This document shows, piece after piece, positions 5,841 through 41,667 of a stretch of DNA of 64,000 nt (position 1 is its first letter; every line of letters starts with the position of its first letter). Source of the DNA: Mesostigma viride (Eukaryota > Streptophyta > Mesostigmatophyceae > Mesostigmatales > Mesostigmataceae); NCBI GenBank assembly GCA_009746045.1, contig RPFO01001113.1, positions 64,501 through 128,500 of the forward strand, written 5' to 3'. The notes under the pieces were generated by a model that saw only the letters and a list, made by a program, of their open reading frames with translations, did not search any database and had not been told where the DNA came from. A program made the translations under genes and the position numbers.

Positions 5841-5845
5841 GCATC

Positions 5846-6053
5846 AGTTAGGTTAAATAGTGCCGGAACCTTTTTGCCGCCTGAGGCAAATCGGTCCGTC
5901 ACACTATTTTGCCCGGAATAACCACTTCCGAGCACCCAAGTTAATTCGGCCGCATTAACTTGGGTGCTCGGAAGTGGTTATTCCGGGCAAAATAGTGTGA
6001 CGGACCGACTTGCCTTAGGCGGCAAAAAGGCTCCGGCACTATTTAACCTAACT
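5846..6053. mobile_element. Solo 208-bp palindromic element with 5-bp target duplication
   Basis: A near-perfect inverted repeat: AGTTAGGTTAAATAGTGCC on the left is mirrored by GGCACTATTTAACCTAACT on the right, meeting at a centre containing TTCGGCCGCATT. It is flanked by GCATC on both sides (5841-5845 and 6054-6058). It is a diverged relative of the palindromes in the arrays at 10192-11749 and 13235-14116. It shows that the palindrome can exist alone in the genome with its own target duplication, like a solo LTR or a foldback MITE. Confidence 0.85.
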
Positions 6054-6134
6054 GCATCTCACAGGATCATAGTGGATCACACACATGAGTACTCTATTGC
6101 TATGGATATGCCTTCCAAGTGATAGTCTAGGATA

Positions 6135-6390
6135 TAATGGCACGCAAACGCGACAGCGCGGCTTGACGATTGAGGAATACTATTGCGAGTATGTCGCTTG
6201 GGCGCACTCACGGTGTTACAGCCGCCAGTTGTGTGTCAATGCGCTTATGGGCCTGAATTTGTACTTTCCCCGGGAGGTGCGGGATTGGGCCTTGGCACGA
6301 AGTGTTTTGGCTGGCTGGCGCACGTTGGCACCCCCTCGTGCTCCCCCCCCCCATTCCATGGGAGGCTGCATTTGCGCTTGCTTGTACTAC
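6135..6390 (+). pseudogene. Fragment of a PAT-like tyrosine recombinase
   Basis: About 70 residues (for example CVNALMGLNLYF, LARSVLAGW and PPRAPPP) are closely similar to the N-terminal part of the recombinase domain encoded at 28230-28440 in the PAT-like element. The catalytic Arg, His-x-x-Arg and Tyr region is absent, so this is a dead fragment of a related element. It ends near 6390, just before the TTAA-ended repeat. Confidence 0.8.
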
Positions 6391-8502: not shown

Positions 8503-10191
8503 GCCCTCCCCGCCCCCCTCACACCGCGAGCAGCTACCGGGGGGTTAGCTAGAACCCACCCCCCACACCCGTCGTCCGATGGCCGAGCGTGTCTTGGATA
8601 GTCCAATCTCACGGACGACGCAACGGAGTCAAAGCCGCGACCTTCATCGCCAACTTCGCAACAAGGAGCGCCTGCTGGCTTTCGCAACCCGGCACTCCCA
8701 ACGGTATGCTGCATTCTTTGACCCCAAGACCAGGCGAGCAAGTCGCGCCGCCCGCCTGGAGGGTGCCCTATGCGCGTTGAAAAGTACTATGTTATCTCAC
8801 GCCGCACACACGTCCCCGCCAGCCTCCCCCCCACCCCCTGCCGACACCGCGGGTCCCCGGCGCCCCCTGCTGGGCCAACGCCGGCACCACTCGCTGCGCA
8901 TCGCAACCTACAATGTCCGCACCCTGCCCGGGGGAGATGCCCCCCCGCGGGCCAACGAGCTTGTCCACTACTGCCGCCTATATGGCATTGATGTGCTTGG
9001 GGTCCAAGAGCACCGACGCTCCTTTGAGGGCCCCGTTCAGCGTGTCACCCTCGCACTACAATGGCAACTGCTGTGCGGCCCGGCGCATGCACCGGGTCAG
9101 GGAGGAGTGGGCCTGCTGTGCTCCCCCACCGCTGCCGCCCAGCTCGTGGACCACAAACTTTGCTCGAATAGGATCCTTCAGTGCACTTTCCGCTCCCTTG
9201 AAGGACGGACCCCCATTATGCTCTCGGTAATTGTCGGATATGCCCCACATGCTGGGCACCCGGCCGAGGACCGCGCAGCGTTCTTCAACCAGTTGCTCGA
9301 CATAGAGAAACAGATCCCACGTCAATACATCGTCGCCATCTTGGTGGATGCCAACGCGACCCTGCCCGTGGGCCGCGGGGGCTGCATGTATGCGCCGCGC
9401 CTAACCGATAGCAATGCCAACACCCCCCTACTTGAGCAACTGCTCACTGAGGGGGACTTGACTGCTGCCAATACGCTTTTTGCTAAACCGCCTGATGCAC
9501 TAGTGACCTTTGTGGGCCCCATGCGCAGGGCGGCTGGCTCAATGCTCCCTCGGCGGCGATGTGTATGCTTGGACTACATACTTGTGCGCAAGTGCTGGCG
9601 CTCTTCCGTCATCGATGCCCGTACGCTGACCACCCCCAGTGTCGCATCGGATCATCGCATGGTCACCGCAACCTTGCGCCTACGTCTTCAGGCCCCTGCG
9701 CGCCGCCGCCCCCGGCCCCGCCCTGACTGGACCTGCTTACGCCCCGTCCGTGGGCGCAGGGAGAAGTGGTCAGCGGATGAGATACGCCGCGATGCAATCA
9801 GGTCTGCCTTTGTGGACGCGCAACCTTTGATGTACCTGGACGCAGATCGCGGTGTAGATCTCACGCCACCCTACGAACTGTTCATGCGATCGGTGGATCT
9901 TGGCTCTAAGCTTCTCCCCGAGCAACCCCGCGCCCGACCAGCCCCGCTCTACCTGCGCGACGCCCGGGTGGTTGCCGCCCGGCTGGCGCTAGCGCAGGCC
10001 CGCCGCCGCGGGGAGGACCTGTACCCGTACCAGGAACGGCTTACTCAAGCATATACTGCCGCCCATGCGGAGGAGGTGGAGACACTTGCCGCCGAAATCA
10101 ATCGCCACACGGCCGCCAACCAGCACAAGGCGGCCTGGCGCTCTCTCGACCGTCTCACCGGACGCCGGGAAACGCAACGGGCTGACATCTC

Positions 10192-11749
10192 AGTTACGTT
10201 AAATAGTGCCGGAACCTTTTGCCGCCTGAGGCAAATCGGTCCGTAACACTATTTTGCCCGGAATAACCACTTCCGAGCACCCAAGTTAATTCGGCCGAAT
10301 TAACTTGGGTGCTCGGAAGTGGTTATTCCGGGCAAAATAGTGTTACGGACCGATTTGCCTCAGGCGGCAAAAGGTTCCGGCACTATTTAACGTAACTAAA
10401 ACCTGGCCTCGTGGAGGGGGGACGAAGAGCCCGAGACATCCGCCTAGGCCGCTGAGCACGCACCACTAAATGCGCCGGAGCTGCCTCAGTGAGGATTCGA
10501 ACCCCTGACCTCCAAGGTGCACAGGTTTTAGTTACGTTAAATAGTGCCGGAACCTTTTGCCGCCTGAGGCAAATCGGTCCGTAACACTATTTTGCCCGGA
10601 ATAACCACTTCCGAGCACCCAAGTTAATTCGGCCGAATTAACTTGGGTGCTCGGAAGTGGTTATTCCGGGCAAAATAGTGTTACGGACCGATTTGCCTCA
10701 GGCGGCAAAAGGTTCCGGCACTATTTAACGTAACTAAAACCTGGCCTCGTGGAGGGGGGACGAAGAGCCCGAGACATCCGCCTAGGCCGCTGAGCACGCA
10801 CCACTAAATGCGCCGGAGCTGCCTCAGTGAGGATTCGAACCCCTGACCTCCAAGGTGCACAGGTTTTAGTTACGTTAAATAGTGCCGGAACCTTTTGCCG
10901 CCTGAGGCAAATCGGTCCGTAACACTATTTTGCCCGGAATAACCACTTCCGAGCACCCAAGTTAATTCGGCCGAATTAACTTGGGTGCTCGGAAGTGGTT
11001 ATTCCGGGCAAAATAGTGTTACGGACCGATTTGCCTCAGGCGGCAAAAGGTTCCGGCACTATTTAACGTAACTAAAACCTGTGCACCTTGGAGGTCAGGG
11101 GTTCGAATCCTCACTGAGGCAGCTCCGGCGCATTTAGTGGTGCGTGCTCAGCGGCCTAGGCGGATGTCTCGGGCTCTTCGTCCCCCCTCCACGAGGCCAG
11201 GTTTTAGTTACGTTAAATAGTGCCGGAACCTTTTGCCGCCTGAGGCAAATCGGTCCGTAACACTATTTTGCCCGGAATAACCACTTCCGAGCACCCAAGT
11301 TAATTCGGCCGAATTAACTTGGGTGCTCGGAAGTGGTTATTCCGGGCAAAATAGTGTTACGGACCGATTTGCCTCAGGCGGCAAAAGGTTCCGGCACTAT
11401 TTAACGTAACTAAAACCTGTGCACCTTGGAGGTCAGGGGTTCGAATCCTCACTGAGGCAGCTCCGGCGCATTTAGTGGTGCGTGCTCAGCGGCCTAGGCG
11501 GATGTCTCGGGCTCTTCGTCCCCCCTCCACGAGGCCAGGTTTTAGTTACGTTAAATAGTGCCGGAACCTTTTGCCGCCTGAGGCAAATCGGTCCGTAACA
11601 CTATTTTGCCCGGAATAACCACTTCCGAGCACCCAAGTTAATTCGGCCGAATTAACTTGGGTGCTCGGAAGTGGTTATTCCGGGCAAAATAGTGTTACGG
11701 ACCGATTTGCCTCAGGCGGCAAAAGGTTCCGGCACTATTTAACGTAACT
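10192..11749. mobile_element. Five-palindrome array with four tRNA-like spacers
   Basis: An exact 338-bp period: palindromes at 10192-10397, 10530-10735, 10868-11073, 11206-11411 and 11544-11749 (206 bp each), separated by 132-bp spacers. The unit begins AGTTACGTTAAATAGTG and ends CACTATTTAACGTAACT. The whole array is flanked by ATCTC (10187-10191 and 11750-11754), so it entered, or grew from, a single insertion in the LINE. Spacers 1 and 2 are in one orientation and spacers 3 and 4 in the other. There is no coding capacity; apparent frames are translations of the palindrome. The organisation (terminal repeat - short interior - terminal repeat, 5-bp duplication, solo forms elsewhere) recalls a miniature LTR element, but with palindromic terminal repeats. 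Confidence 0.9.
11033..11121 (+). other. tRNA-like segment spanning palindrome arm and spacer
   Basis: The spacer contains GGTTCGAATCC (11100-11110), a perfect eukaryotic B box, inside a T-arm-like stem. It is preceded by AGGTC, a common tRNA variable loop, and followed by CTGAGGC and A. The seven bases GCCTCAG at 11033-11039, in the palindrome arm, pair perfectly with CTGAGGC at 11114-11120 as an acceptor stem would. The D arm is poor and no paired anticodon stem is visible, so this is a tRNA-derived 3' half rather than a working tRNA. The same arrangement exists for all six spacers: 10398-10529, 10736-10867 and 13441-13572 on the minus strand; 11074-11205, 11412-11543 and 13779-13910 on the plus strand. 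Confidence 0.55.
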
Positions 11750-13234
11750 ATCTCAGGCACCCCCAGTGAACGCCTTGAGATTTGGTTCAGCTCCCAGGCC
11801 ATACTATCAGGGGCCCCTGGCCCGCCCCCCCCGCTTGACCCCGCTGCAGCTGCACGCCCTGCGGCCAGCCGAGGCGGCCCCATCGAGCCCCCGCAGGCGC
11901 CCACCAGCGAGACGGACTACCTGGTCCCACCGCTCTCCGGCCCCCTGGGGGACGGCCCCCACGACGAGTGGACTCCCCAGGAATGGGCTGCTGCCATCTC
12001 CACCCTCCGCAATGATGCTGCCATGGGAGTGGACAATATTTCACCGGAGGTGGTTAAGATGCCTGAGCTTGAGCCCTTCCTCCGGGGTGTTTGCAACCGG
12101 ATTCTACGAGATGGCCTCCCCCCGCCGACGTATTGGAAGACCGCTGTACGGGTCATGCTCTACAAGGGCAAGGAGTCCGCCGCGGATACCGGCAACTACC
12201 GCGGCGTATGCCTCCAAAGCTGCGTGCTGAAAGTCTTCATGCGTCTCCTGCTGAACCGCATGCGCGCCAGCCTCGATCCCCACCTAGGTGAGTCCCAGAT
12301 GGGCTTCCGTGTTGGTCGCAATTGTGTTATGGTCACTATTACCGCGCGCCGCCTGATCGAGGAAGTGGGTCGCCTGGCCCCCGGCCTCTTGCCATTGCTA
12401 TTGATCTTCGTGGATTACACCAAGGCATTCGATACGGTTACCTGGGACGCCCTGTGGGTGGTCCTTCACCTGTTCCGTGTCCCATCGTACATCGTTGAGA
12501 TCATCCGCCAGTTCTATGAAGGGTCCCAAGCCCAGGTCCGTACCGCCGACGGCGTCACTCCGGCGTTCCCCCTGCACACCGGGGTGTGGCAGGGCTGTGT
12601 GCTCTCCCCATATCTATTCATCATTATGGTGGACTATATTATGCGGCGTGCACAAGCCCGCTTCGCCCGGGTGGAGGGGCGGCTGGGGCGCCCGCCGGGG
12701 ATCGAGATCACGGAGTACGCCAGCTACGGCGGGGTTGACCCACCCTACCGCCTGAGCGATCTGATCTACGCTGATGACACGACACTCGTGGAAACCCCAG
12801 AGTCAGCCCAACTGTGGCTAGACAGCTTATCACTGGAAGCGCGGGCGGTGGGGCTTATGATCAGCAAGAAAACGGAGGTCATGGCCATCGGCTTCCCTGC
12901 TGGGATAGCCCCACCCACCCTCCTCTTGCTGGACGGCAGCCCTGTCCCCCCGGCGACTCGCTTCAAGCTCCTTGGCAGCTGGCTTCCCTCCACGGCCGAC
13001 GACATCAACACCCGCATTGGCCAGGCCTGGGCGGCCCTCCGCCGCCTCGACAGGTTCTGGACCTGTCGCTACCTGAGTGAGCGACGCAAGCGCATTCTGT
13101 TCAAGGCCCTTGTCCTCAGCATCCTCCTTTATGGCTGCGAGGCGTGGACCCTGGACCAGGCGCTGAGCCAGCAGCTTGACGGCACCGTCACTCGAATGCT
13201 CCGTCATATCCTCGGCGTCCGCTACCAAGAACGC

Positions 13235-14116
13235 AGTTACGTTAAATAGTGCCGGAACCTTTTGCCGCCTGAGGCAAATCGGTCCGTAACACTATTTTGC
13301 CCGGAATAACCACTTCCGGGCACCCAAGTTAATTCGGCCGAATTAACTTGGGTGCCCGGAAGTGGTTATTCCGGGCAAAATAGTGTTACGGACCGATTTG
13401 CCTCAGGCGGCAAAAGGTTCCGGCACTATTTAACGTAACTAAAACCTGGCCTCGTGGAGGGGGGACGAAGAGCCCGAGACATCCGCCTAGGCCGCTGAGC
13501 ACGCACCACTAAATGCGCCGGAGCTGCCTCAGTGAGGATTCGAACCCCTGACCTCCAAGGTGCACAGGTTTTAGTTACGTTAAATAGTGATGGAACCTTT
13601 TGCCGCCTGAGGCAAATCGGTCCGTAACACTATTTTGCCCGGAATAACCACTTCCGGGCACCCAAGTTAATTCGGCCGAATTAACTTGGGTGCTCGGAAG
13701 TGGTTATTCCGGGCAAAATAGTGTTACGGACCGATTTGCCTCAGGCGGCAAAAGGTTCCATCACTATTTAACGTAACTAAAACCTGTGCACCTTGGAGGT
13801 CAGGGGTTCGAATCCTCACTGAGGCAGCTCCGGCGCATTTAGTGGTGCGTGCTCAGCGGCCTAGGCGGATGTCTCGGGCTCTTCGTCCCCCCTCCACGAG
13901 GCCAGGTTTTAGTTACGTTAAATAGTGATGGAACCTTTTGCCGCCTGAGGCAAATCGGTCCGTAACAATATTTTGCCCGGAATAACCACTTCCGGGCACC
14001 CAAGTTAATTCGGCCGAATTAACTTGGGTGCCCGGAAGTGGTTATTCCGGGCAAAATAGTGTTACGGACCGATTTGCCTCAGGCGGCAAAAGGTTCCATC
14101 ACTATTTAACGTAACT
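13235..14116. mobile_element. Three-palindrome array with two tRNA-like spacers
   Basis: The same 338-bp organisation as the array at 10192: palindromes at 13235-13440, 13573-13778 and 13911-14116, spacers at 13441-13572 and 13779-13910 in opposite orientations. The array is flanked by AACGC (13230-13234 and 14117-14121), so it is an independent insertion in the same LINE. Palindromes 2 and 3 carry GATGG in the left arm and CCATC in the right arm where the other array has GCCGG and CCGGC, so both arms changed together. Confidence 0.9.
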
Positions 14117-14753
14117 AACGCCGCACCCGGGGCGAGCTCTACTGCGAGCTCCCTCTTGTCACCCATACCATCCGACACCGCCGCCTCCTCTTTGCCGGCC
14201 ATCTTGCCCGCACAGACCAGGTGAATACCGATGTGGGCCCTGCCGGGGGGCTTAAGACGGGCCAACCAGGTAGACACCTCCTCCTATGGCAGGGTCCCCT
14301 TGTCCCATCGCAACCCACTGGCAAACTTGCGCGCGCCGGGCACCGGCGCGGCGCGACCCGGACCTATGTGACACAACTGCTTGAAGATGCAGGGCTTCTG
14401 GGACTATCCGTACTCCGCGCCCGCATGATTGACAAGGAGAAATGGGCTGCCATCTGCGATAAGCACCTTCCCGAGGGGTATGCTCCTGTTTTCTCCCCAC
14501 GGGCCCCGCGGCCCGTTGCTAGCCAGGGTAGAAGTCTGCAGGTGGAGGTTATTGGTCCTGAGGATAGCCGCTACACTACTGCCTCGTCTGCCATTACAGT
14601 AGAGGACAGCTCGGATGAGGATTACATCCCCATCTAGTGCTTAACGGTTGGGGGATGATGCAGACGATATTTGTTTAAACTTTTGTGTAATTATTTTTCT
14701 AATGAGATTAGCATAGTACTCCGTGGCATGCCTTTGCGCATGACACGCAACTA

Positions 14754-22669: not shown

Positions 22670-24318
22670 TTAAGACGCTCTACTAAATGAGAGGAGGAGG
22701 AGTGGTAGGCAGTACCGAACGTAACCTTGGTACCGATAGCAGCGAAAAACTGCTGCCAAAAGTCGGAGGTAAATAGCTTATCTTTATCACTAATAAACTG
22801 CCTACTCAAACCATGATATCTATAGACGTTATTAAGGTATAGGCGTGCGCAATCGCGTGCGGTGAGTTCTAAGGGACACGGCACGAGATGACACATACGG
22901 GTAAAACGATCTACAAACACAAGGATCTGGGCGTTACCTCTATCATTCTTCCTAAAAGGTCCTACAAAATCCATCATAATGGAGTCCCACGGCATGATGG
23001 GATCAGGTAGGGTCCTAGGTTCTGCTATCTGTCCTACATTGTTGGGTTTCATCTCCTGGCAAGATTGACAGGTCCTAACATACTCATCTACATCTTTTAA
23101 AAGGGAAGGCCAGTAGTAAGAGCGGGCTACTAAGTCCCGTACCCGTTTACCACCCTGATGAGCAGCTAAGTCATGCAACTCAAAGAGCAAGGAGGAGCGA
23201 CAGATAGGAGGGACATACAGGCGCCATTGAGGGGGAGAGTCTGCTATCTGCACATACAAAAATCCACCTACAAATTTACAAGGGTGCTTGCCAAACTGTT
23301 GGGGATGGGTGGCAATGGCAGCTAAAGCTTCCGGCTCAGTGGCCGTAAATCTACTAATAAGGCGTTCAAGATCAGAGGTAGGCATCGCTACAGAGGTATC
23401 CAGAACAGGTTTAAAGAGGTCTCCTACCGCCTTGCCGAAGAGAAGGGGAGGTCCTAGAGGGACTATGTTATCATAAGACTTTCCTGACCTAGTCGCTATG
23501 TGGCTAAGCGGTATAGAAATTTTATTTTTCCCCTCCCCCCCCACCGAGACCACAGGAAGGGCCTCACACGGGAGAGAGATTCCTACGTGAGAAAGAAGAT
23601 CAAGCATGCGAACAGCTGTATGAAAGAGATAGGCATAGGATTCATCATCAGGTTGTTCACCATAAGGGATTACACCCATAGTAGTAGGAACTAGAGTAGT
23701 ATTGAGAACATCCAAGTCCTCGAAAAAGGAGTAATCTGCGCGACGGGAGAGTGCATCAGGTACTATGTTATCTACACCCTTAACATACTGAAGTTTAAAA
23801 GGGGAAAACTGTGCTAAAAACTCCATCCAGCGCGCTTGATGAGGGGTAAGGTTGGGTTGGGAGAGAAGATGGGTAAGGGGGCGGTGATCCGTTTGGATAA
23901 CTAATCTACAAGGATCTATCTCACAGGGTTCATTCAGGCAAACATCAAATTGGGCACCTTTAAGAAAGTGCTGCCACGCGTGGCAACAATACACCACCGC
24001 TAAGAGTTCCTGCTGGTGTACTGGATAGTTACGCTCCGCAGGGAGCATTGTCCTGGAGATATACTCAATTGGCTGTAAGCCCTGACCCTGATCCTGGAGA
24101 AGGACGCCCCCTATAGCTACCTTACTAGCGTCTGTAGCTACCACAAAGGGTTTAGTAGTATCCGGTAGGATGAGTACGGGAGGAGAGAGGAGTAGGGATT
24201 TTAGACACTGAAAAGCCGACTGACATTCACTACTCCAGACAAAGGGGATATCCTTCTTTAATAAATGATTAATAGGGGCTGCTATAGTTGCGAAACGCGG
24301 GATAAAACGCCTATAGTA
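22670..24318 (-). pseudogene. Gypsy Pol: RT end, RNase H, integrase core
   Basis: Begins with the conserved YYRRFIPRF segment at the end of RT, then RNase H (VVATDASKVAIGGVLLQD, QTDHRPLTHL, DALSRRADY). The integrase zinc-binding region follows (HDLAAHQGGKR..CQSCQ) and the catalytic core (MMDFVGPF, ISDKDKLFTS). The third acidic residue lies by the junction with the TTAA element. The N-terminal residues of the open frame (before YYRRF) belong to the PAT-like insertion and not to this protein. Confidence 0.9.
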
Positions 24319-24750
24319 TCGTGGTTCTCTGAACATAGTTTCTTTATAGTGAGATGGAAGGGTAGCCGCTATAGCTAGGTTATTGGGTTCACGTGACATA
24401 CCTTTTGAGGCCGGTGCGGCCTGATCCGGATCAGTCGTGGCCAAAGCTTTGGCCAGTTTTTCTTGGCCAGGTGGCAGGAGCTACGTTGAGATATAAACCT
24501 GCCACTGTCTAGGTTTCTTGGCTCATGGCGTAGTGATTAACTAGATCTAGATTCTTTCTCTCACGCAATATGTGACCTAATAGCCCCGGCAGCCTTACGT
24601 AAGCTGCCGGCAATTAGAACGCCACATTGCGTCATTTGTTCAGACGCAACATTTGCGTGGCGAAAAAATGCCGTCCGGGCCAAGGCCGCATGACACGCAA
24701 AAAAGGACAAAAACAAACCCACCTAGCTAAGGTCGGCCTCTTTTCTTTTC
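24319..24750 (+). repeat. A1 repeat of the PAT-like element
   Basis: Begins TCGTGGTTCTCTGAACATAG and ends CTCTTTTCTTTTC. Repeated in full at 29223-29654. It would contain the promoter; a palindromic CCGGCAGCCTTACGTAAGC stretch lies near 24585-24610. Confidence 0.9.
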
Positions 24751-24837
24751 ACGAGGGCGGCGACAGCAAGCCAGGGGAAACGAACCTCTGGTTTGACGAA
24801 CCTGTACTGTCGGAGCCATTTTTGGCCCTGAGCAGCA

Positions 24838-25892
24838 ATGCCGAAGGGGCGCAAAGCTACAGGAGGGCAGGCAGCGCGCGGGGAGGACGGGACGCCCACA
24901 CCGCGGGCTGCTGCCGCCAGTCACGCGCCAGTCGCCTTCAGCGCCAAAAAGAAGCAGCTCGCCACTCTGCTCGCCAAGTGCATCAGCCCCGCAGAGGCGG
25001 TGGGGGCAGTCGAGCAGGTCTTCGGTGCCGAGGACTGGGTGACGGACGCCAGCTCGTGGAGCTCGAGCCAGCTGAAGTCTGTCGTGCAGTTGCTGGCCGA
25101 TCACGTTGATGTTGGCGACGTGTTGGACGCACGTGACCCAAACGGAACGTTGGTGGCAAAACTGCTGGCCGTGGCAGATCTCGCGGCGGACGAGGAGGAG
25201 GATCAGGCGCTGCCACCAACGACACCTGCGCAGCGAAAAATGGCCAAGCCGAAAGGCGCGGCCAAGGTTTCGGCAGGTGGGGGGGCTGTCGGAAAGGAAA
25301 TGAGGGCGAGGTTGGCGACATTCGTTGGGGCACCTCCGGAAACCGAAAATCAGGACGACGAGGAGGACGAGGAGGGGGAGGTCGCAGCCGAGAAATTCAT
25401 GCAAGGTTTGAAGGCAGCGCTGGGAGGAATGGAGGGGGCGGGAAGCCACTTCAAGGCCTCGAAAGGGGTGGCGCTGCCAAGCCGAGCCAAGAGCGTGAAA
25501 TATCGGGTTTCGGAGCGGGTGCTGCCGGGGGTGTTGGAGGACGCCAGCGACAATGGGATGGGAATCCGGTCGTGGGTCATGACGGTAAAGCCTGGAAATT
25601 GGCGGAACATGGAGAACAGGAAAATTGTCATGAACATTGCATTGGCCATGGACACCCTTCTCAAGGAGCTGGGCTCAGCAGCCGGGGAGCTTGTGGGCAT
25701 GGAGTACCTAATGAGGGTGGTGGCGGCCTTGCTGCAGGTGGAGGGCAAGGAGGGGGGGGGTGGAAGGTGGCCAGCCACCTCCTGCCATTGGGGGAGGAGG
25801 CTGCACTGTCAGCCACCCCGGCTGTCAAGGCAGCTCTCCAAACTGCCATCCTCTTGGACAAGCTCAGCAAGGCTCAACAAGTAGGGAAATAG
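24838..25892 (+). CDS. PAT-like element Gag-like protein
   Basis: Starts at ATG 24838. The N-terminal ~100 residues (KKKQLATLLAKCISPAEAV, DPNGTLVAKLLA) and a central acidic stretch (DDEEDEEGE) precede a globular part ending near the stop at 25892. A run of nine G at about 25752-25760 shifts the frame; the better continuation (LPLGEEAALSATPAVKAAL) is in the other frame, so the shift is either an assembly homopolymer error or a real lesion. There is no zinc knuckle. The role as structural protein is inferred from position upstream of the polymerase. Confidence 0.7.
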
Positions 25893-28800
25893 AATCCCAG
25901 CGGGACCGCTCCCTTTTCCCGCTGCCATACCCACTTAGGCCAGCGTACACCGCGTGGGGCAGGGTGAGATCGGCACGCCGGCGACAGCGTGCCACGCGCC
26001 GCCACCGCGAGTACACACTGCAATGCAAGGTAGTGCGTTGGCTTAATTGGCTGTGGGGAGGGGGGCAAGACCCTCCTCCTAACCCTAGAGGGGCGTGCTC
26101 TAAGGGGAGGGAGGAGGCCCTTGCGAGGGTCAAGAGGCACTGCACCTGGCACAGTCGCCGCGTAGGGGGCGTTGCGACAGGCCAGGAGCAAGAAGGTGCT
26201 GATGCAATATATGGGAAGCAGAATAAGTATGAACAACTGCGCGCGGACGCGGTGAGTCTACCAAAGGCGGAGGTGGCGGGGAAGGCACGGCTGCTCGACC
26301 TGTTGGCTATGCGGCCGAGCTGGCGGGAGATATATGCCAGCGAAGAGAACTGCATCAAGCCAGCGGTCGTGGCGAGCGCAAAGTATTGGAATGTGCCCAA
26401 GCCCAGCCGGGGATGCTCCATGGCTGAATGGGGCAAGCTCATGAGCCGGGCAGCGGGCGTGGGCATGGTGGCGTTCCGGGAGAGGCGGCCCAAGTGGGTG
26501 GATGGCTGCTTTGGAGTGGCCAAGGGGGTGGGTGAGCTTCGGTTCATCGTCAACAGGAAGCTGGGCAACCTGCTGTGGGTGGACCCCCCAAGATCCTGCT
26601 ACCCCACCTGGGCATCCTCGTGGAGGTCTACATCAAAGGCTGGTGCTACTGCGCCAAGAGCGACCTCGTGTCATACTACTATTCCATCGAGGTGCCCGAG
26701 TGGTGGTGGGACTACCAAGGGCTTCCTAGTGTGTGGTCGACTAGCGTAGGTCTGGCAGGGCCCAGGCGGAAGGTGTGGCCCGTGCTCAAGGTGCTGGCCA
26801 TGGGACATTCCCATGCGGTGGCGCTGGGGGAGGCCATCCATGAGATGGTGCTCTACATGACCGGTGCCCTGGATCCGAGGCGCCAGGTCAACTACCTCTC
26901 AAGCGCAGGTGAGCTCACCTTGGTGCGCGACGAGTGTGGCCAGCCACTGCGCTTGGCCATCGAGTACAAGGAGGAGCGCGCCGGGGAGCTTCAGATTGAC
27001 CTGGAAAACCCCCCTGCCCCCATGCTGTCCATCACCATTGATGACTTGGTGGCCAGCAACGGGCGGACCTGCGAGGCGGTGAACCAGCTCATCACGCGCG
27101 CTATTGAGGAAGGCTACCTCCCTAACAACCTTGTGCCGTCTAAGGAGAAGACTAAGATGGCGAGCCTGGAAGGGGACGAGCTAGAAGCCCTAGGGGTGGT
27201 GCACCGACGGAACGGCGTGCTGGAACCAACGGTCAAGCAGCTCAACCTTGTGATCGCCCACACGCAGGCTATACTCACTCGAGGCCGAGCTACGGCCGAG
27301 GGGCTGGCTGCCGTCTTGGGGCGGTGGTTGTGGCTGCAGATGTTAAGCCGCAGCTGCTTGTCCATTTGGCAGCAATGTTTCAAATTCATCAGCCTGCAAG
27401 GGTGGGGGCAGCGATCCTGGGTGCTGTGGGCCGGGGTGCGGGAGGAGTTAGAGTGTGCCCTGGCCTTGGCTCCCATGCTAAGGGTTGACCGAAGCGCACC
27501 TTTGGCCCGTGAGGTGGTTGCATCTGACGCGTCCACCTACGGGCAAGGTGTCGTGTACGCAACCATGGAGCCGGGCGATGTGACGGAGCTGGCGAGGGCA
27601 CGAGAGGTGCGGGGGTACCCGACTTTGCTCATACCAAGTGAGGTGGCCTACGCTGGCCCTAGGCCACTGAGCGCGCGGGCGCAACAAGCAATCACTAGCC
27701 AGCAATGGCGGGTTGGGGTCCGGAGTCGTTGGCGGGATCCGGGGATGCACATCAACGAGAAGGAGGTGCGGGCTGCAGTGAAGGGCGTGGAGAGGAGTGC
27801 GCGCAGCTTGGCAAACCGAGGCAAGCGGGTGGTGAGGTTGGTGGACTCCACCGCGGCGTTGGGCTGCTTGGCTAAGGGGCGGTCCTCATCCCACAAGCTC
27901 AACAAGCAGTGCCGCCGCTTGTGCGCGCTGACCCTCGCCACGGGGAGTCGTTCCCAGTGGGTGTGGACGCCGAGTGCACTTCAACCAGCCGATGGCGTTT
28001 CTCGCGGCCAATCCATGGCGACTTTCTTGGCAGGCTGGGTGCGCGACCTGACCGCGGAAGGCATCCATCCTAACCCGGGGCCCCCTGCACCTGTTAGCTA
28101 CCTTCCATTGCTAGAGGGGAAAGTAAAGCCGGCTACTTTGCTGGCCTACCGTCGTGGTCTTGATTCCCTCTTGACTTGGTGGGAGGCTGGTGGGCGGGCG
28201 GACGGGTCATCGTCACGAGCTGACACCCTTGAGGAGACATTTTGTGCGTATGTCGCCTGGGCTCATTTTCGGGGGTACAGCCGCCAAGTGTGTGTCAATG
28301 CCTTGATGGGGTTGCAACTTTATTATCCCGGTATGGTGAAGCGGTGGGACTTGGCCCGTGGCGTCCTCGCTGGGTGGAAAACACTTGTGCCCCCCCGTGC
28401 CCCTCCTCCCATTCCATGGGAGGCGGCGTTTGCACTTGCCAGCACGATGGTCATGCAAGGTCAGCGCCTTGCGGGCCTGCTGGTTGTCATCGTGTTCCGC
28501 CATTACCTGCGAATCTCGGAGGCGCTGAACCTCCGTGTTGGCCATGTGCGCCTCCAGCCTGACGTTCGGCTTGGGCCGGCTCAACGGGGCGCCCTACTGC
28601 TGAGGTCTACCAAGACCTCTAAGGGCAAGACTCAGTCAGTGGTGGTAGAAGATGTGATGTCTGAAACCATCCTCCGTCACTGCATCGCGGGTAAGCACGC
28701 TTGGGAGGCCGTGTTCCCTTTCACCTACCCGCAATTCCGGCGCATTTGGCAGGCTGCGAGTCAGGCCTTGGGGGTCGCCCAGATTTTCACCATTCACGGG

Positions 28801-29013
28801 CTGCGGCATGGAGGTGCCACTCACGATTTCCTCGCGGGTCGCAGCATGGGGGACATCCAGGGCCGGGGGCGCTGGCTTAGCAGCTCCACGGTTGCCCATT
28901 ATGTGGGCTTGCACCGCAGTTTGGAGGTGCAGCTGCCTGAGGTTATTCTTCGGGCCATGGCCGCCTGCCCCCCTCGGGCCTGGCGGGCTATTTTGAAATT
29001 GCCCTCCACCTAA
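25893..29013 (+). CDS. PAT-like element Pol: RT, RNase H, tyrosine recombinase
   Basis: The first part (about 26180-26585) carries the RT fingers (GVGELRFIVNRKLGNLLW). A run of C at about 26583-26588 moves to the 812-codon frame 26575-29013. In order this has RT motif A (SDLVSYYYSIEVP), motif B (AMGHSHAVAL) and active site TIDDLV near 27040; RNase H (ASDASTYGQGVV near 27520, VRLVDSTAAL, ADGVSRG); and a tyrosine recombinase with LRISEALNLR near 28510, HGLRHGG near 28797 and the catalytic Tyr in VAHYVG near 28895. Reverse transcriptase and recombinase are in a single frame. No adenine methyltransferase domain is seen. Confidence 0.9.
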
Positions 29014-29085
29014 TTTGGTTGTTCATTTCTCTGTCATTATGCTAGGTTCTTTGCCCCTGGCATGGATCGCCAGGGAGGGATATAA

Positions 29086-29222
29086 GGGTAAGGCTAGCCT
29101 TTGCCAAGCAATAAGTGTTCCCATGAGCATCGGCGGCCGGGATGTGGCCTGCCTTTTGTATGTGCTCCACTCATTGTTTTAATAAAGAGTCTGGTTACCC
29201 TGGAGTTCCACGGTTAATAGAA
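29086..29222 (+). repeat. B1 repeat of the PAT-like element
   Basis: 137 bp from GGGTAAGGCTAGCCTTTGCC to CGGTTAATAGAA, directly abutting A2. Contains TTTTAATAAAGAG near 29180, a possible poly(A) signal. Confidence 0.9.
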
Positions 29223-29654
29223 TCGTGGTTCTCTGAACATAGTTTCTTTATAGTGAGATGGAAGGGTAGCCGCTATAGCTAGGTTATTGGGTTCACGTGA
29301 CATACCTTTTGAGGCCGGTGCGGCCTGATCCGGATCAGTCGTGGCCAAAGCTTTGGCCAGTTTTTCTTGGCCAGGTGGCAGGAGCTACGTTGAGATATAA
29401 ACCTGCCACTGTCTAGGTTTCTTGGCTCATGGCGTAGTGATTAACTAGATCTAGATTCTTTCTCTCACGCAATATGTGACCTAATAGCCCCGGCAGCCTT
29501 ACGTAAGCTGCCGGCAATTAGAACGCCACATTGCGTCATTTGTTCAGACGCAACATTTGCGTGGCGAAAAAATGCCGTCCGGGCCAAGGCCGCATGACAC
29601 GCAAAAAAGGACAAAAACAAACCCACCTAGCTAAGGTCGGCCTCTTTTCTTTTC
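29223..29654 (+). repeat. A2 repeat of the PAT-like element
   Basis: A second full copy of the 432-bp A repeat between B1 and B2. A C-rich spacer (29655-29679) separates it from B2. Confidence 0.9.
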
Positions 29655-29679
29655 CCCCCCCCCCTCCCTGCGTGTTTGG

Positions 29680-29816
29680 GGGTAAGGCTAGCCTTTGCCA
29701 AGCAATAAGTGTTCCCATGAGCATCGGCGGCCGGGATGTGGCCTGCCTTTTGTATGTGCTCCACTCATTGTTTTAATAAAGAGTCTGGTTACCCTGGAGT
29801 TCCACGGTTAATAGAA
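29680..29816 (+). repeat. B2 repeat of the PAT-like element
   Basis: A second copy of B, ending GGTTAATAGAA exactly at the junction with gypsy RT sequence. The B-A junction (AATAGAA-TCGTGG) seen at 29222/29223 is what a circular intermediate would carry. Confidence 0.9.
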
Positions 29817-34761: not shown

Positions 34762-35360
34762 TGTTATATTGTGGGCTCGCAGTCACATAAAGTAATGGAA
34801 TTTGGTTATGCTCGGAATTGGCTAAGTCCGGAGGTCAGCCGGCAGCGCCGCGCTGAGGTTTATTTGCTGGGCCGGCGGTCAGTGGGAATTTATGTGTACG
34901 GTCAGGCAACGGGTCGTAGGTTCTGCATGGCTGTGGGCTATTTTGGGTTCTGGCCATTACCGTTGGTTCCGTGGGCAACTTTGGTTCCGTACCGTTTGTC
35001 CAGGCAGTGGGGACGATCTCGGTTGCGGTGCGTTATGTTGTGGAGTGTCGTTTGGGAATTATGTTTGTGTACTTCGGTTGGTTTGTACTTGGGTACGTTC
35101 TCAGGCCCACGCCGTTGCTCAGCGTTGGGTGAAGCCACAGAGCTACTCGCAGTGATGACCTACAGCGGAGCATTGAGTCAAAGCTGTTTGGCGGCGTGAA
35201 AGGCCGACACGCAGGAGAAAGCTTTGAATCACGTTGCAGCAAATGCTGTCAATGGCCGACGTTGTCGACATGTCCGGGGCTGGGCGCTGAGCGAGTAATC
35301 TATTTTTACGTCTTTTATTATTCGGAAATACAATACACTTGAATTTTTTTTTTGTACTAG
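34762..35360 (+). repeat. Copia 5' LTR
   Basis: Aligns with 41067-41667 almost base for base apart from a 4-base insertion (TGCA near 34925) and changes in the last 60 bases. The 3' boundary is approximate because of a T run. Confidence 0.85.
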
Positions 35361-35390
35361 GTTGGGGCCGTAATTTTACAGCATAAAACA

Positions 35391-36617
35391 TGGCAGCGTC
35401 AGCTGGGAGAAAACGGAAAGCAATTCATAGTGATCCGTCGACATGGGCCGCTGACCTACGAGCTGAAAAGGATCTGTTAGAACTATTTCGAAAGCGTGTG
35501 GAACCCTTGCTAGCGACGCACCCACGCTCGTAGTGCGTGACTATATAGAGAGAATAGAGGCTTTTCTGAAGGACCATGGTGAGAAGATCAGCAGTGTTTA
35601 TTCGCTTTTCCGAGATGCCGGTTTGCTGAGCTGCGACAATTTCATTCTCGCATTTACTCTTCGAGCATGCAAGGATGAGAAGGTAAAACGGCGTCACATC
35701 CCAGGTAAGCTGCGTGAGGCGTTGTTGGAGTCGAAGGAGGGCACGACCTCTAGGCTATGCAGCATTTACACCTGGGTGCCACAACGGCCTTACTCACTCG
35801 ATTTACTCAGCCTTCGCAATTTGCGGAATGAGTCTGTGCTCAATGGACTAGAGGTGTCTGAGACAGCGGTGATAGACCGTTACGTGAGGATGGCCAAGGA
35901 CCTGAATTTCCAGACTGTGATGGGAGCCCTGCGTGCAGGCCAAGCCAAGGATGACCTTACCAAGGCAATAGAGATCATTACCGGCCTGGTAGAAGGGGAG
36001 GAGAGGGACATGATTGCACAGCTGAGAGCCCAGGGCAAGCTGACCGAGTCTGGGTTGATGGCCCCTGCCCCTCCCCCAGCCGCTCCCAATTCTGTGCCCC
36101 TCCCTGCACCCTCTGTGCCAAGCACTGTTACCCTGCCAAGCCACAGGATGCAACGGGCAAGGTTGCCGGTGTCAACAACAGCAAGCCTGCTGGAGTAGGC
36201 AACGGTGGCAAGCAGCGTGGTGGAGGCCGTGCCCGTGGTGGCGGGCGCGGTGGCAGACGTGGGCTGTGGCAGGGCAGGCCATTGGTGCAGCAGCAGAGAC
36301 AGCAGCAGCATTATGCCCCAGCACAGCAGGCAGGACAGCCGCATTATGCTTCACAGCCGCCGCAGCCGCAGCAGCAGTTTGCACAGCAGCAGCAACAGCG
36401 GCAGCCACAGAGGCAGGAGTCTGGTGCATGCTTCATATGCGGGAGAAAGGGTCACCTGGCACGCACATGCTACAATAGGCACGCTGACAGCATGCCAGCT
36501 CGCAGCAATAGCAATGCACAGGGCCCTGCCGTGTGTAACCGCTGCAAGCAGCCAGGACACTTTGCACGTGACACGCACCTGTGCCCGGCGGCCCAGAGTG
36601 GGGGCCGTAGGCAGTGA
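35391..36617 (+). CDS. Copia Gag
   Basis: Begins at ATG 35391 (MAASAGRKRKAIHSDPSTW). A shift near 35520 leads to the frame at 35533 with an alpha-helical capsid-like region (RDYIERIEAFLKDHG, LRNLRNESVLNGLEVSE). A second shift near 36130 leads to an RGG-rich and Gln-rich stretch and two CCHC knuckles (CFICGRKGHLARTC and CNRCKQPGHFARDTHLC, the second with an irregular spacing). Two frameshifts make this copy defective unless they are assembly errors. It ends at TGA 36615-36617, in frame with Pol. Confidence 0.8.
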
Positions 36618-36621
36618 CTAG
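36615..36621 (+). promoter_or_regulatory. UGA-CUAG stop-codon readthrough context between Gag and Pol
   Basis: Gag ends CAG TGA CTA G, and the Pol frame is open in the same phase right after the stop. UGA followed by CUAG is an established efficient readthrough context in eukaryotes. No frameshift is needed to make Gag-Pol, so suppression of this stop is the likely expression strategy. Confidence 0.65.
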
Positions 36622-39600
36622 GGTCCGGTGGTGAGGGTGAGGCAGCTGGTGATGTGCCAAATATGCGAGCTAGTGCGGGGCAGCACGGCTCGACCCCCCA
36701 GGCTAGCTCACCCCGCCTGGGTGCTCGCGTGGCAGCGCTAGATGAGAGCGCTGGTGAGGAGGGGGACCATGCAGAGCAGGGGGCAGTTGCAGTAGGGGAT
36801 GAAGCACTGTCTCAGGGAACGAGGGAGAAGGGGGTTGGAGGAGGTACTGCAGGTGTACACACTGCAGTTCTGGACGGGCCACCGGTACGAAGGTCCTCCC
36901 CACACCCGGGACCTCAGGCACAACAGTCTCAATGTCCATTGGAGGCAGGTGGTACACTCAGTGTACTTAACATGGCAATGAGGTTACACACACGGTTGGG
37001 TCATGGCCACGCTGCAGAGCATTGGGCAGCATCACTGGGGTTTTCGGAGCTGGTGGCGACGTGCAGAGAGGTCTGGCAGAGGTGTAAGCATTGTCAGCGC
37101 AATGTGCCTAAGCCGCACAAGTTTCATGCACGTAGACCGGTGCTAGAGAGGGGCCCGGTGCAAGTGGATGTGCTCAAGTACGATGACAGGGAGTATGTGC
37201 TAGCGGTGGGGCGGTTCTCCAGGTTCAAGGCACTAGAGGTGTTGCCACGCAAGCACAAGGAAGAGCTGCTCACCAGCCTGCGCTTGGTAAAGGCCAAGTT
37301 TGCCGTGGTGTCAACTTTAGAGTGTGACCAGCAGTTCGAGTGTTGCATGAAGGAGCCGGGGTTTGAGCAGATTGTGGTGGCGGGTGCGGCAGATCACGAA
37401 CATCAAGGGTTAGTGGAGAGACATATCAGGACCTCCAAGTTTGTGATGAGTGCTATGGCCAGGATGCGCTCGCTGTCGTACCGCGATCAGGCTCTGTTGT
37501 GCAGGCAGATAGAGGAGCACATGAATCACAGGGTGATGGTCAGGGTACATGTGGATGGTGAGGAGGTAGCCGTCACGCCCCATGGGTTGGAGATGGGCCT
37601 GCTCCCGCTGGAGGCGGTAGAAGCATACCGTGATTGGCTGTGTGACCGGTACCTCAGGCTGGTGGACATGGACCTGCGCAGGGGTGATGTGTACGTGCCT
37701 AGCGAGGGAGCAAGGGTGTGGGCGTACCGGGAGGGAAGTGCTTTGGAACAGGGTTTGTGGGAGGGCCCTGTTGTGGTCAAGTCAGTGGACGGTGACCACA
37801 TGTTGGCGAAGGTTGGGCGTGAGGACCGCCGCTTCGACCGACTACTGGCGTGGAAACACTTGCGGCCGTACTACGAGGGGCTAGGTGCGCCAGCAGACCT
37901 GCCCCATGAGGAAGGTGCGATGGGCTCCAGCGCGCAGGCTGGAGGTGAGGCGGGGGACCCAGGGACGGCCGCAAGGGGGGTGAGAGAGGAGACGGGGCCT
38001 GATCAGCCTGCGCCCTCTCTTCCGTCGGATGGTGGGTTGCCACTGTCCAATGGCGGTCCAGCCAGTGTGGGACCAGGCGGGCTGGGGGTTGCCCCTTCCG
38101 CTGATGGTCAGGAGGTGCAGCGCGCGACAATGTTTGCCCGTGTCATTGAGCGGCTGCAGGAAGCCCGGCGGGCAATCGCGGAACGCGAGCAGCCGGGGGG
38201 CACGTTACCACGGGCCGGCGGGGCGGGCAGGCCGTCGGCTGTAGGTGGGGCGCCTCAGGCCGGCGAGGGAGCCGTAGGAGGGCCACCACAGTCCAGCGAG
38301 GCCAATGCAGGGCCAGCCGCAGGTGGAGAGGCACAGGCCGGCGATGCTGGCGCATCGACCGCAGGTGCGGGGCTACAAGCCGATGGCGCTGATGGGTCGG
38401 CTAGCACCCGGCGCGAGTCACTGAGTGGCGGTGATGGCTCCGAGGGCGGCGGCGACGTCGCAATGGAGGCTGGTAATGAGGTAGCCTCGGTGTCTAAGCT
38501 AGTGGATTTTCAGCAGGACGGGCTGGCTGGGTGTCGGTTGGAGGTGGATACTAATGCGGTGGTGTGCTTGCTAGGTGAAGGGGTAGCTAGGCACTTCCCG
38601 CTACAACCGTCCAAGTGGAACTTTGTGGAGGACTTTTCTGGGGTGGTGCGCATGCCGGTAGTGGGCGAGGTGATGCTGACCATTCTTGGGCGTGACACTC
38701 CTTTCTGCGTGCTTGAGGGCTATGATGGGCCGGCGATTCTGGGGCTGCCATTTCTTAATCACCCTGATGTTGTGATCCAGAGCTCTAGTTTGACCAGGGA
38801 GGGCCATGGGTCGATAGAGTTGGAATCGTACAAGGCAGTGCAACCTCTCAGTCTCGTCTCAAGCACCGTGGCTAGGCTAGCAGCACTGACAGGGACAGAG
38901 GGTGTGGCGTGGGGAAAGGATCTCCCGCCAGCGGTAGACCTGGTCATGCCTGCGTTGTTGCATCCATCCAGCATCGGTATTACCAAGCGGGACATCGCTG
39001 CACATTCTCCGATTGGCTATGAGAGGCTGGTACTAGAGATGTCGACGCAGAGTGGTTTCTCCAGCTGGTGGTGCGCGTTTCACAGGGCGCTGGAGGAGTG
39101 GCAGGGGTATGGTGTGTATGAACCAATGGACAGTGTGCCCAAGGGGGCCAAGGTACTTCCTCTCAAGATGGTGTTGTCTCACAAGGTAAAGGCTGGGGTG
39201 GAGGTATGCTATGTGAGGCCGGTGTCGCAGGAGTTTTCGGGAACCAGTGAGCTGGCCAAGGAGGAGCTGTACACCCCAGGTCTGGCGTGGGATAGCTTCA
39301 GGATTATCACCATGCTGTATCTCGGTTTCCTGGATGAGGGCAGAGACTATGGGTGTGCGTCTATTGATGTCAAGCGTGCTTTCCCTAACTCTAGCGAGGA
39401 GGTGGCGCGTGAGGTGTGGGAAGGCACGTCACCCCTGGTGGTCCAGACACCCTCGTTTTGGATGGAGGAAGTGAGGGCAGAATTCATGGGCTTGTTGAAG
39501 GCCATAGAGGGACTGCAGAGTGCCTCGATTGTGTGGCGTATCACTTTGATGCGTGCTCTGTTTGAGCTGATGACATTCGAGGTATCCCCGTACGACCCTT

Positions 39601-40580
39601 CGTTGTTTGTGGCACAGACTCCCTCAGGTCCCTTGTTTGTACAATTGCATGGGGATGACCTGCGAGTGGTAGCACCCCGTGCTGTTCTGCATCAGTTCTA
39701 TGCAGATCTCGCTAAGCGTTTCCCTGTGGGCGAGCTGCAGGTGGTGGACCAGCAGACTCCGCGTGTCTTCTGCGGTGTAGTGCAGACCCTGCGAGTGACG
39801 TCTGGTAGGCATCAGATGCACCTGGGTATTCCTGACAAGTATCGGGAGGAGCTGATGGGCTCGGTGGATGAGCTGTGTGCTAAGGGCCTGTGGAGCCGCC
39901 TGCGTGGCAAGCTAGGCTGGATGGCGGCAGTGTGTGCGCCCGATCTGGTGGTGCTGAGTAGGACGGTAGATGACGTGTTGTCGCAAGTCCATCCGTCGGT
40001 TGTGAGGCAGTATGTGGCCGAGAGCCAAGGTGTGGTGCTTTCTGGCCTGTCGGTCTCTCAGCCCGCTGTTCTTCACTGCTTTGCAGATACGTCGGGTGAG
40101 GGCAGGGAACTGACCAAGCTGAGGGCACGGATGGGTGGTCTGTTTGTGCTCTGTAACCCAGGGGGTCGGGGATCGCTGTGTGGGTGGTATTCGAGACTGT
40201 GCAGGCGTGTGGCAGTTGGCTCTGACACTAACGAGTGCCGTGGTGTGTGTGAGTGTATCAAGGCTTCGCTGTACCTCGAGCAGTTCTTGCGCTGGATGGG
40301 CAAGTGGATGGGTGTCCGTTTGGTGCTGACGACAACTGTGCATACGGATAGCCAGCCGCTTGTGAGCTTTATCCTTAACAGCTTGTCCAGGACGCGTGAC
40401 CTCGATTTCCTGCTGTTGAAGGAGCTGTCTTACGCGGTGAGCGTTCTCCATCTGCCGGGGAGGCTGAACCCGGCGGACGCGGTGACCAAGCTGTTTGCAG
40501 CAGCGCGAGAGCAGTATCGCATCTTGCGGATGGTGATGGCAGGTTCTCTTGGGGATCTGCGGGAGTTGTTGGTTGTTTGA
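36618..40580 (+). CDS. Copia Pol: integrase, protease-like domain, RT, RNase H
   Basis: A continuous frame of 1,320 codons. Integrase has a zinc-binding region (HTRLGHGHAAEH near 36990 to CKHCQ near 37090) and core acidic positions in VDVLKYD, LECDQQFE and HQGLVERH. A long Gly/Ala-rich linker follows. A segment with a VDTNAVVCL motif (near 38545) and, about 64 residues later, ILGLPFL (near 38740) looks like a retropepsin with Asn in place of Gly after the catalytic Asp-Thr. RT has LPLKMVLSHKVKAG, ASIDVKRAFPNS near 39358 and HGDDL near 39650 as the active site. RNase H has FADTSGEG and NPADAVTKLF, a copia signature. Confidence 0.88.
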   Translation, partial: LGSGGEGEAAGDVPNMRASAGQHGSTPQASSPRLGARVAALDESAGEEGDHAEQGAVAVGDEALSQGTREKGVGGGTAGVHTAVLDGPPVRRSSPHPGPQAQQSQCPLEAGGTLSVLNMAMRLHTRLGHGHAAEHWAASLGFSELVATCREVWQRCKHCQRNVPKPHKFHARRPVLERGPVQVDVLKYDDREYVLAVGRFSRFKALEVLPRKHKEELLTSLRLVKAKFAVVSTLECDQQFECCMKEPGFEQIVVAGAADHEHQGLVERHIRTSKFVMSAMARMRSLSYRDQALLCRQIEEHMNHRVMVRVHVDGEEVAVTPHGLEMGLLPLEAVEAYRDWLCDRYLRLVDMDLRRGDVYVPSEGARVWAYREGSALEQGLWEGPVVVKSVDGDHMLAKVGREDRRFDRLLAWKHLRPYYEGLGAPADLPHEEGAMGSSAQAGGEAGDPGTAARGVREETGPDQPAPSLPSDGGLPLSNGGPASVGPGGLGVAPSADGQEVQRATMFARVIERLQEARRAIAEREQPGGTLPRAGGAGRPSAVGGAPQAGEGAVGGPPQSSEANAGPAAGGEAQAGDAGASTAGAGLQADGADGSASTRRESLSGGDGSEGGGDVAMEAGNEVASVSKLVDFQQDGLAGCRLEVDTNAVVCLLGEGVARHFPLQPSKWNFVEDFSGVVRMPVVGEVMLTILGRDTPFCVLEGYDGPAILGLPFLNHPDVVIQSSSLTREGHGSIELESYKAVQPLSLVSSTVARLAALTGTEGVAWGKDLPPAVDLVMPALLHPSSIGITKRDIAAHSPIGYERLVLEMSTQSGFSSWWCAFHRALEEWQGYGVYEPMDSVPKGAKVLPLKMVLSHKVKAGVEVCYVRPVSQEFSGTSELAKEELYTPGLAWDSFRIITMLYLGFLDEGRDYGCASIDVKRAFPNSSEEVAREVWEGTSPLVVQTPSFWMEEVRAEFMGLLKAIEGLQSASIVWRITLMRALFELMTFEVSPYDPSLFVAQTPSGPLFVQLHGDDLRVVAPRAVLHQFYADLAKRFPVGELQVVDQQTPRVFCGVVQTLRVTSGRHQMHLGIPDKYREELMGSVDELCAKGLWSRLRGKLGWMAAVCAPDLVVLSRTVDDVLSQVHPSVVRQYVAESQGVVLSGLSVSQPAVLHCFADTSGEGRELTKLRARMGGLFVLCNPGGRGSLCGWYSRLCRRVAVGSDTNECRGVCECIKASLYLEQFLRWMGKWMGVRLVLTTTVHTDSQPLVSFILNSLSRTRDLDFLLLKELSYAVSVLHLPGRLNPADAVTKLFAAAREQYRILRMVMAGSLGDLRELLVV

Positions 40581-41049
40581 GCTTGGACCCTGTGGAATTT
40601 TAGCCTGTGGCCAATTTGAGAACGTTGTTTGGGCCGGGGGTGATCCTTATGCCTGCCCTATACTGATGGTGACCCGGCACGGTTGGATAATTTGCTCCAT
40701 AATTGATTTGGTGGGGGAGTGTCCTTGGTTGAGGACTGGTGCGGTTGGAACGGGTTTGTAATGTGTATGGGTCGTGTGGGTGTGCCGGGGTCAAGGGTGG
40801 TCGTTTAGATCAGTCTTGTATTCTCGCTTGCTTACATGACTTACTTCAGACACTGGCAGTATGTGCAAGGCGTGAATGGGCGCCAAGTTAGAGGGGTTGG
40901 AGCTCCCCTAGTACATAGCGTCTTGTGCGTACTGTCTCCGCGAGTGTTTGTGAGTAACCCTTGGGTGGGGTTGGATATTGTGAGGATTGTTGGCATGTAT
41001 GTCGACTGTGGGTTGTGGTTAAGTGGCCGAGTGGTGGATGTGACTGCTC
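40581..41049 (+). other. Copia 3' untranslated region
   Basis: No conserved frame. TGTAA occurs near 40756, a poly(A) signal used by chlorophytes. An open frame running into the LTR is probably accidental. Confidence 0.4.
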
Positions 41050-41066
41050 GAAAGAAAAGGGGCTGG
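41050..41066 (+). promoter_or_regulatory. Copia polypurine tract
   Basis: GAAAGAAAAGGGGCTGG lies immediately before the right LTR, the expected plus-strand primer site. Confidence 0.65.
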
Positions 41067-41667
41067 TGTTATATTGTGGGCTCGCAGTCACATAAAGTAA
41101 TGGAATTTGGTTATGCTCGGAATTGGCTAAGTCCGGAGGTCAGTCGGCAGCGCCGCGCTGAGGTTTATTTGCTGGGCCGGCGGTCAGTGGGAATTTATGT
41201 GTACGGTCAGGCAACGGGTCGTAGGTTCTGGCTGTGGGCTATTTTGGGTTCTGGCCATTACCGTTGGTTCCGTGGGCAACTTTGGTTCCGTACCGTTTGT
41301 CCAGGCAGTGGGGACGATCTCGGTTGCGGTGCGTTATGTTGTGGAGTGTCGTTTGGGAATTATGTTTGTGTACTTCGGTTGGTTTGTACTTGGGTACGTT
41401 CTCAGGCCCACGCCGTTGCTCAGCGTTGGGTGAAGCCACAGAGCTACTCGCAGTGATGACCTACAGCGGAGCATTGAGTCAAAGCTGTTTGGCGGCGTGC
41501 AGGGCCGACACGCAGGAGAAAAGCTTTGAATCACGTTGCAGCAAATGCTGTCAATGGCCGACGTTGTCGACATGTCCGGGGCTGGGCGCTGAGCGAGTAA
41601 TCTATTCTATTACGTCCTTTATTATTCAGAAATACAATACACTTGGCGAATTTCTTTTTTTTTAACA
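41067..41667 (+). repeat. Copia 3' LTR
   Basis: 601 bp, TG..CA ends, followed by the CAGTA duplication and the rest of the gypsy LTR. Confidence 0.92.

Follow-up and report, generated by a model that had tools for sequence, protein, structure and literature searches.

KolobokP elements, which have been reported from seven animal phyla, are built of a shared interior and of end repeats that carry their own inverted repeats and are apparently mobile alone, and they also occur in solo forms, according to the portions of the original description consulted (PMC9587614; Kojima and Bao 2022). In the same portions, multimers of the form (end-interior)n-end are described inside one target duplication of 3–4 or 4–5 bp, and unequal crossover is proposed as their source (PMC9587614). 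The ends are direct repeats of approximately 450 or 660 bp with inverted repeats of only 11–18 bp; the interior of autonomous elements codes for a Kolobok transposase and a His-Me finger nuclease, and nonautonomous elements of 1,738–3,261 bp exist (PMC9587614, portions consulted).

Within the 64-kb stretch of DNA analyzed here (the window), one family is represented by three insertions with one, three, and five copies of a palindrome of 206–208 bp, hereafter P, and 132-bp spacers (s, or s' when reversed) separate the P copies in the two multimeric insertions, arrays A and B. Like KolobokP as far as the consulted text describes it, the family has solo, three-P, and five-P forms that each lie in one 5-bp duplication, and its tips read 5'-RR...YY-3' (AG...CT here), which is a weak feature. 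Repeat ends with their own inverted repeats are counted as a shared feature as well because a palindromic P is a direct and an inverted repeat at once. In contrast to the KolobokP ends in that text, P is much shorter and is a full palindrome; whereas the autonomous KolobokP interior is coding, the interior here is 132 bp long and without genes (longest ATG-started frame, 18 amino acids in arrays A and B and 4 amino acids in the solo insertion); and the spacers here are mirrored. No oppositely oriented multimers were found in the consulted KolobokP text, where the passages on palindromes concern the target of the nuclease (PMC9587614). A first-pass annotation of this DNA had known of no described family with this architecture. 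The architecture as such has a precedent in the solo, single, and multimer logic of KolobokP within one 3–5-bp duplication, whereas the palindromic end and the mirrored multimers, which were not found in that text, keep their part of the claim (PMC9587614). These two features distinguish the family from KolobokP and hint at hairpin-templated copying. Among the matches listed from one library of open-access literature, there was no family that combines fully palindromic ends with mirrored multimers.

Made1-type elements have TA duplications, and we know of none that forms spacer-joined multimers. Cassandra carries Pol III promoter sequence. Pairs of bacterial TIMEs mobilize the DNA between them, the Tn3 duplication is 5 bp, and to our knowledge TIMEs do not occur as full palindromes in mirrored arrays. 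In one report, TIMEs are miniature inverted-repeat elements that derive from Tn3 and give rise to mosaic transposons of the nonautonomous kind (PMC4133298, in part). The solo P resembles the palindromic MITEs (Made1 and similar; PMC1784062, in part) in that it is short, noncoding, and almost fully palindromic and has a target duplication. In the Foldback element Tetris, the arms consist of tandem units of ~220 bp that have expanded, and a middle domain is present (PMC4079207, in part).

Architecture of the three insertions

The features of the three insertions are collected in Table 1.

Table 1 Coordinates of the palindromic insertions, their target duplications, and the interrupted LINE frame (positions in the window)
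Feature	Coordinates	Strand	Remarks
Target duplication, left	5841–5845		GCATC
Solo P	5846–6053		208 bp; 4/104 pairs mismatched
Target duplication, right	6054–6058		GCATC
LINE frame	8549–14634	+	contains endonuclease and reverse transcriptase domains; split by both arrays; end converted from joined coordinates
Target duplication, left	10187–10191		ATCTC
Array A	10192–11749		P-s-P-s-P-s'-P-s'-P; 1,558 bp; arms 779, 0 mismatches
P1 of array A	10192–10397
Spacer 1 of array A	10398–10529	+
P2 of array A	10530–10735
Spacer 2 of array A	10736–10867	+
P3 of array A	10868–11073		axis of array A
Spacer 3 of array A	11074–11205	-	reversed; B-box word 11100–11110
P4 of array A	11206–11411
Spacer 4 of array A	11412–11543	-	reversed
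P5 of array A	11544–11749
Target duplication, right	11750–11754		ATCTC
Target duplication, left	13230–13234		AACGC
Array B	13235–14116		P-s-P-s'-P; 882-bp palindrome; 6/441 pairs mismatched
P1 of array B	13235–13440		perfect palindrome; CC at half-arm sites 18–19
Spacer 1 of array B	13441–13572	+
P2 of array B	13573–13778		axis of array B; one mismatched pair; AT at sites 18–19, both arms
Spacer 2 of array B	13779–13910	-	reversed
P3 of array B	13911–14116		one mismatched pair; AT at sites 18–19, both arms
Target duplication, right	14117–14121		AACGC

The coordinates that the first-pass annotation had assigned to the solo insertion and to both arrays proved correct to the base, and we recovered its unit counts (five P and four spacers in array A, three P and two spacers in array B), the number of P units per array being as given by the assembly alone. 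A direct repeat of exactly 5 bp borders each of the three insertions (3/3), and Tandem Repeats Finder gave a period of 338 bp for both arrays, in agreement with the annotation. All five P copies of array A are letter-identical, 206 bp long, and perfectly palindromic, and its four spacers are identical to one another. What had gone unnoticed is that the order of the spacers is mirrored about the central P, as s s s' s' in array A and s s' in array B. Because P is palindromic and the spacers are mirrored, array A is in its entirety a perfect palindrome and array B a near-perfect one. The symmetry axis coincides with the center of a P in all three insertions, with half-lengths of 104, 441, and 779 bp. 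When spacerless palindromes were sought, allowing no more than one mismatch and requiring arms of at least 15 bp, 13 axes were listed, of which nine were the P copies (two of them being the array axes) and four were short, with arms of 15–18 bp. P begins with AG and ends with CT (AGTTA...TAACT), and the outward-facing end sequence is identical on both sides of the P copies.

Both arrays interrupt a LINE frame, in which the part upstream of array A matched the Pfam domain Exo_endo_phos (3.8e-09) and the part between the arrays matched RVT_1 (5.4e-25). When the arrays and one target copy each were removed, a single frame of 1,212 codons was obtained, stop to stop. Two insertions into this otherwise open frame indicate that the arrays are real insertions, and as they interrupt an otherwise open frame they are probably young.

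Variation among P copies and composition of the spacer

The arm comparison took in 18 half-arms of the nine P copies. The solo insertion differs from the arrays at half-arm sites 6, 26, and 55, alike in both arms, and P1 of array B differs from P2 and P3 at sites 18–19, where the two arms of each copy agree (Table 1). At site 86, G is found in five of the six arms of array B, and one arm of P2 deviates without a mirrored counterpart, as does one arm of P3 at site 59. The solo insertion has four unmirrored sites (23, 38, 45, and 101), with all four departures in the right arm. With 4/104 unmirrored in the solo insertion and one each in P2 and P3 of array B, the arms are thus not alike in every copy. 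Overall, a change in one arm of P tends to be accompanied by the same change in the other: the P lineages differ mainly by mirrored changes, and single insertions also hold unmirrored ones, so matching of the arms seems to take place in active elements and not in resting ones. Such matching would result from hairpin-templated synthesis or from conversion between the arms of P, and a choice between the two would be conjectural. The half-arm of P folds as DNA with a z of −2.84, and each half-arm contains an inner inverted near-repeat (GTTAAATAGTG / CACTATTTTGCC, e.g., at 10197–10208 and 10247–10258), which makes P a palindrome built of smaller hairpins.

The spacer is identical in all six copies across arrays A and B, with the ends AAAACCTG...CAGGTTTT. 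Its halves match each other in the inverted sense with a score of 39, against a shuffle mean of 19.0 and with 3 of 2,000 shuffles reaching 39, and its RNA folds somewhat better than shuffles (z −2.41 for one strand and −1.69 for the other strand). The word GGTTCGAATCC, which from the consensus we take to be a perfect Pol III B-box, is present in 6/6 spacers and nowhere else in the 64 kb. A tRNA model placed across the P-spacer border reached 16.2 bits, compared with a curated cut-off of 29, with the acceptor and T arms fitting and the rest not, and ARAGORN detected no tRNA in the window or in four joined test strings for a tRNA or permuted tRNA in the spacer. On these patterns, we read the B-box region of the spacer as a putative tRNA-like remnant or a lone B-box. 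A tRNA-derived SINE is not supported despite the B-box word, as there is no recognizable tRNA head by either method. Searching the window against Rfam gave nothing at the gathering cut-off. With E up to 10, array A had 31 matches, none of which reached the cut-off of its family; the five families concerned were mir-3145 (50.3 bits against 98), Dictyoglomi-1 (39.1 against 150), ceN39 (19.8 against 35), snoR144 (17.2 against 100), and tRNA (16.2 against 29). The first four of these families were set aside as matches of long hairpins.

Origin of the mirrored arrays

P is probably the mobile end of a composite-like family of nonautonomous DNA transposons of eukaryotes. This reading is supported by the exact 5-bp duplications at all three insertions, which differ in length, by the restored LINE frame, the shared symmetry axis, the arms of P that change together, and the longest frames of 18 amino acids, as well as by the same solo and multimer logic in the consulted text on KolobokP. 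Counting against it, no transposase domain was present among the ORFs scanned (20/43), and just three insertions are known. The features typical of MITEs are present, namely short length, absence of coding sequence, inverted-repeat ends, and a target duplication of fixed length. P would then be a 206-bp palindromic MITE-like unit, and a transposase encoded at another site would cut and join it with a 5-bp stagger. As every P carries identical outward ends, any pair of P ends could bound a larger unit; P alone would be the minimal form and the spacer a passenger interior. A whole array may have inserted as a unit or may have grown inside a first insertion, and the family may be a foldback element amplified in place, as the first-pass annotation had suggested. 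Multimers, whether formed before insertion or after it, would result from P-to-P copying or alternatively from unequal crossover between P copies, in which case exchange between P arms in inverted orientation would have flipped the spacers.

Because a strand of P is self-folding, fold-back copying could occur. If a strand, either nascent or broken, ended in P, it could fold back on itself and use the preceding arm as a template, which would give mirrored halves and keep the arms of P alike. We regard this copying step as plausible, with the balance tilting slightly against it. The wider proposal is that the family represents a class of mobile DNA with fold-back copying as its mode of multiplication: each insertion would be a whole-length inverted duplication about the tip of the hairpin end, growth would proceed in mirrored 338-bp steps (half-lengths 103–104, 441, and 779), and the ends would stay palindromic as one arm serves as template for the other; this we find doubtful. 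Random spacer flips would leave both arrays mirrored in 2/4 × 4/16 = 1 in 8 cases, and spacers inverted through recombination of P copies account for the mirror equally well, so the mirror alone is not decisive. Moreover, the last event in array B was not a clean mirror copy, since the outer copies P1 and P3 differ at sites 18–19. The unmirrored differences in the solo insertion and in P2 and P3 of array B also weigh against arms that are always kept alike.

Inverted units could also have been generated outside the chromosome, if a linear molecule closed by half-P hairpins had replicated by a rolling-hairpin or dumbbell mode into palindromic dimers that were then inserted by a recombinase acting on P ends. 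Such a replicon would yield the dimer P-s-P-s'-P, which is array B, and it agrees with a self-complementary P whose arms change together. ODIRA, an inverted amplification in which strand switching between inverted repeats produces triplications, provides a precedent for inverted dimers from an expelled hairpin-capped molecule, although the triplications described in the portions consulted differ from the unit orders of arrays A and B (PMC10766186). However, under the simple rolling-hairpin form the spacers should alternate (s s' s s'), which the order s s s' s' of array A does not fit; an extra head-to-tail step would be required, and no replication gene was seen, which leaves the replicon in general unlikely. 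It is still less probable that the copy number and mirror order are artefacts of assembly over an unassemblable palindrome and that the cell has a solo P or P-s-P only. An assembler could create the letter-identical P copies and spacers of array A, and parts of two reports describe palindromes and long inverted repeats as a threat to the stability of genomes (PMC3855049 and PMC3315005). Nevertheless, the three P copies of array B differ among themselves, the target duplications adjoin both ends, and the LINE frame continues unmirrored, unlike a fold-back read.

With long inverted arms of 779 and 441 bp that contain 338-bp units, the arrays share with classical Foldback-type elements, as partly described for Tetris (PMC4079207) and Galileo (PMC3573991), inverted arms with a variable number of internal tandem units, which would have been lengthened by unequal exchange, and the occurrence of nonautonomous forms. 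Yet the separate middle domain of these elements is absent here, the unit at either end of an array is palindromic in its own right, and the arms are exactly equal in 2/2 arrays. The duplications at the three insertions are 5 bp, whereas those of Foldback and Galileo are 7–9 bp. Galileo, in addition, belongs to the P superfamily (PMC3573991, in part), and a Foldback origin appears very unlikely to us. The first-pass annotation had also likened the family to LTR elements, and the repeat-interior-repeat order, the solo and multimer forms, and the single 5-bp duplication bear out that logic; membership among LTR elements does not hold, given the AG...CT ends, the lack of a coding part, and spacers that run both ways. 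A TRIM-like element, with P as a small LTR, s as a tiny interior, solo forms from LTR-LTR exchange, and arrays from tandem exchange, would agree with the 5-bp duplication, the small size, and the solo, single, and tandem forms, which are known from TRIM and Cassandra elements (PMC7215508, in part). On the other side, P is fully palindromic and lacks TG...CA ends, and the spacers lie in both orientations within one insertion in 2/2 arrays; we regard a TRIM as highly improbable. Inspection by eye showed no primer site or purine tract at the spacer ends.

Instability is to be expected of long perfect palindromes; yet under the preferred composite-like DNA-transposon reading, palindromes of up to 1.5 kb are apparently both produced and inserted by a mobile family. 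If mirrored multimers are the rule, the family would offer a natural system for studying hairpin-templated DNA copying and would carry the KolobokP-type composite-like design over to elements that are miniature, devoid of genes, and palindromic at their ends.

Searches for relatives and surrounding repeats

The Pfam scan, covering 20 of the 43 ORFs of at least 150 amino acids in the window, returned no transposase domain, and the window itself held no further copy of the P end beyond chance-level matches. Scans of a viral contig collection gave no relative, with two stretches showing a peptide pattern and none confirmed, and plasmids and phages gave no match to P plus spacer. Six records of a genome contig collection contained the 19-mer; their blastn matches, of only 19–23 bases to P and in one case of 14 bases to the spacer, were taken as chance, and the records were rejected as relatives.

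The surroundings of the insertions are eukaryotic repeat DNA with Gypsy, Copia, and tyrosine-recombinase ORFs (20/43 ORFs scanned). The tyrosine-recombinase ORF at 26575–29013 lies within 24313–29816, where a 438-bp repeat (24313–24750 and 29217–29654, 99.8% identical) and a 137-bp repeat (29086–29222 and 29680–29816, 100%) are found; we take these to be split direct repeats as in PAT/Ngaro-type retroelements. This element appears to lie within a Gypsy element of the opposite strand. A short distance beyond the solo palindrome, the stretch 6170–6381 is 72% identical to 28229–28439, a part of the tyrosine-recombinase ORF, and judged by this similarity it is probably a decayed relative of that ORF. 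A Copia-type element occupies 34762–41660, with an RVT_2 ORF (36654–40580) between 97% identical repeats (34762–35353 and 41067–41660). Two arrays with a 45–46-bp unit and similar consensus (CGGCCGTTGGCGCA...) are located at 55233–55761 and 57007–57764, and ~688 copies of the hexamer AAGGAC, with 98% matches and several frames open, fill 57773–61886.
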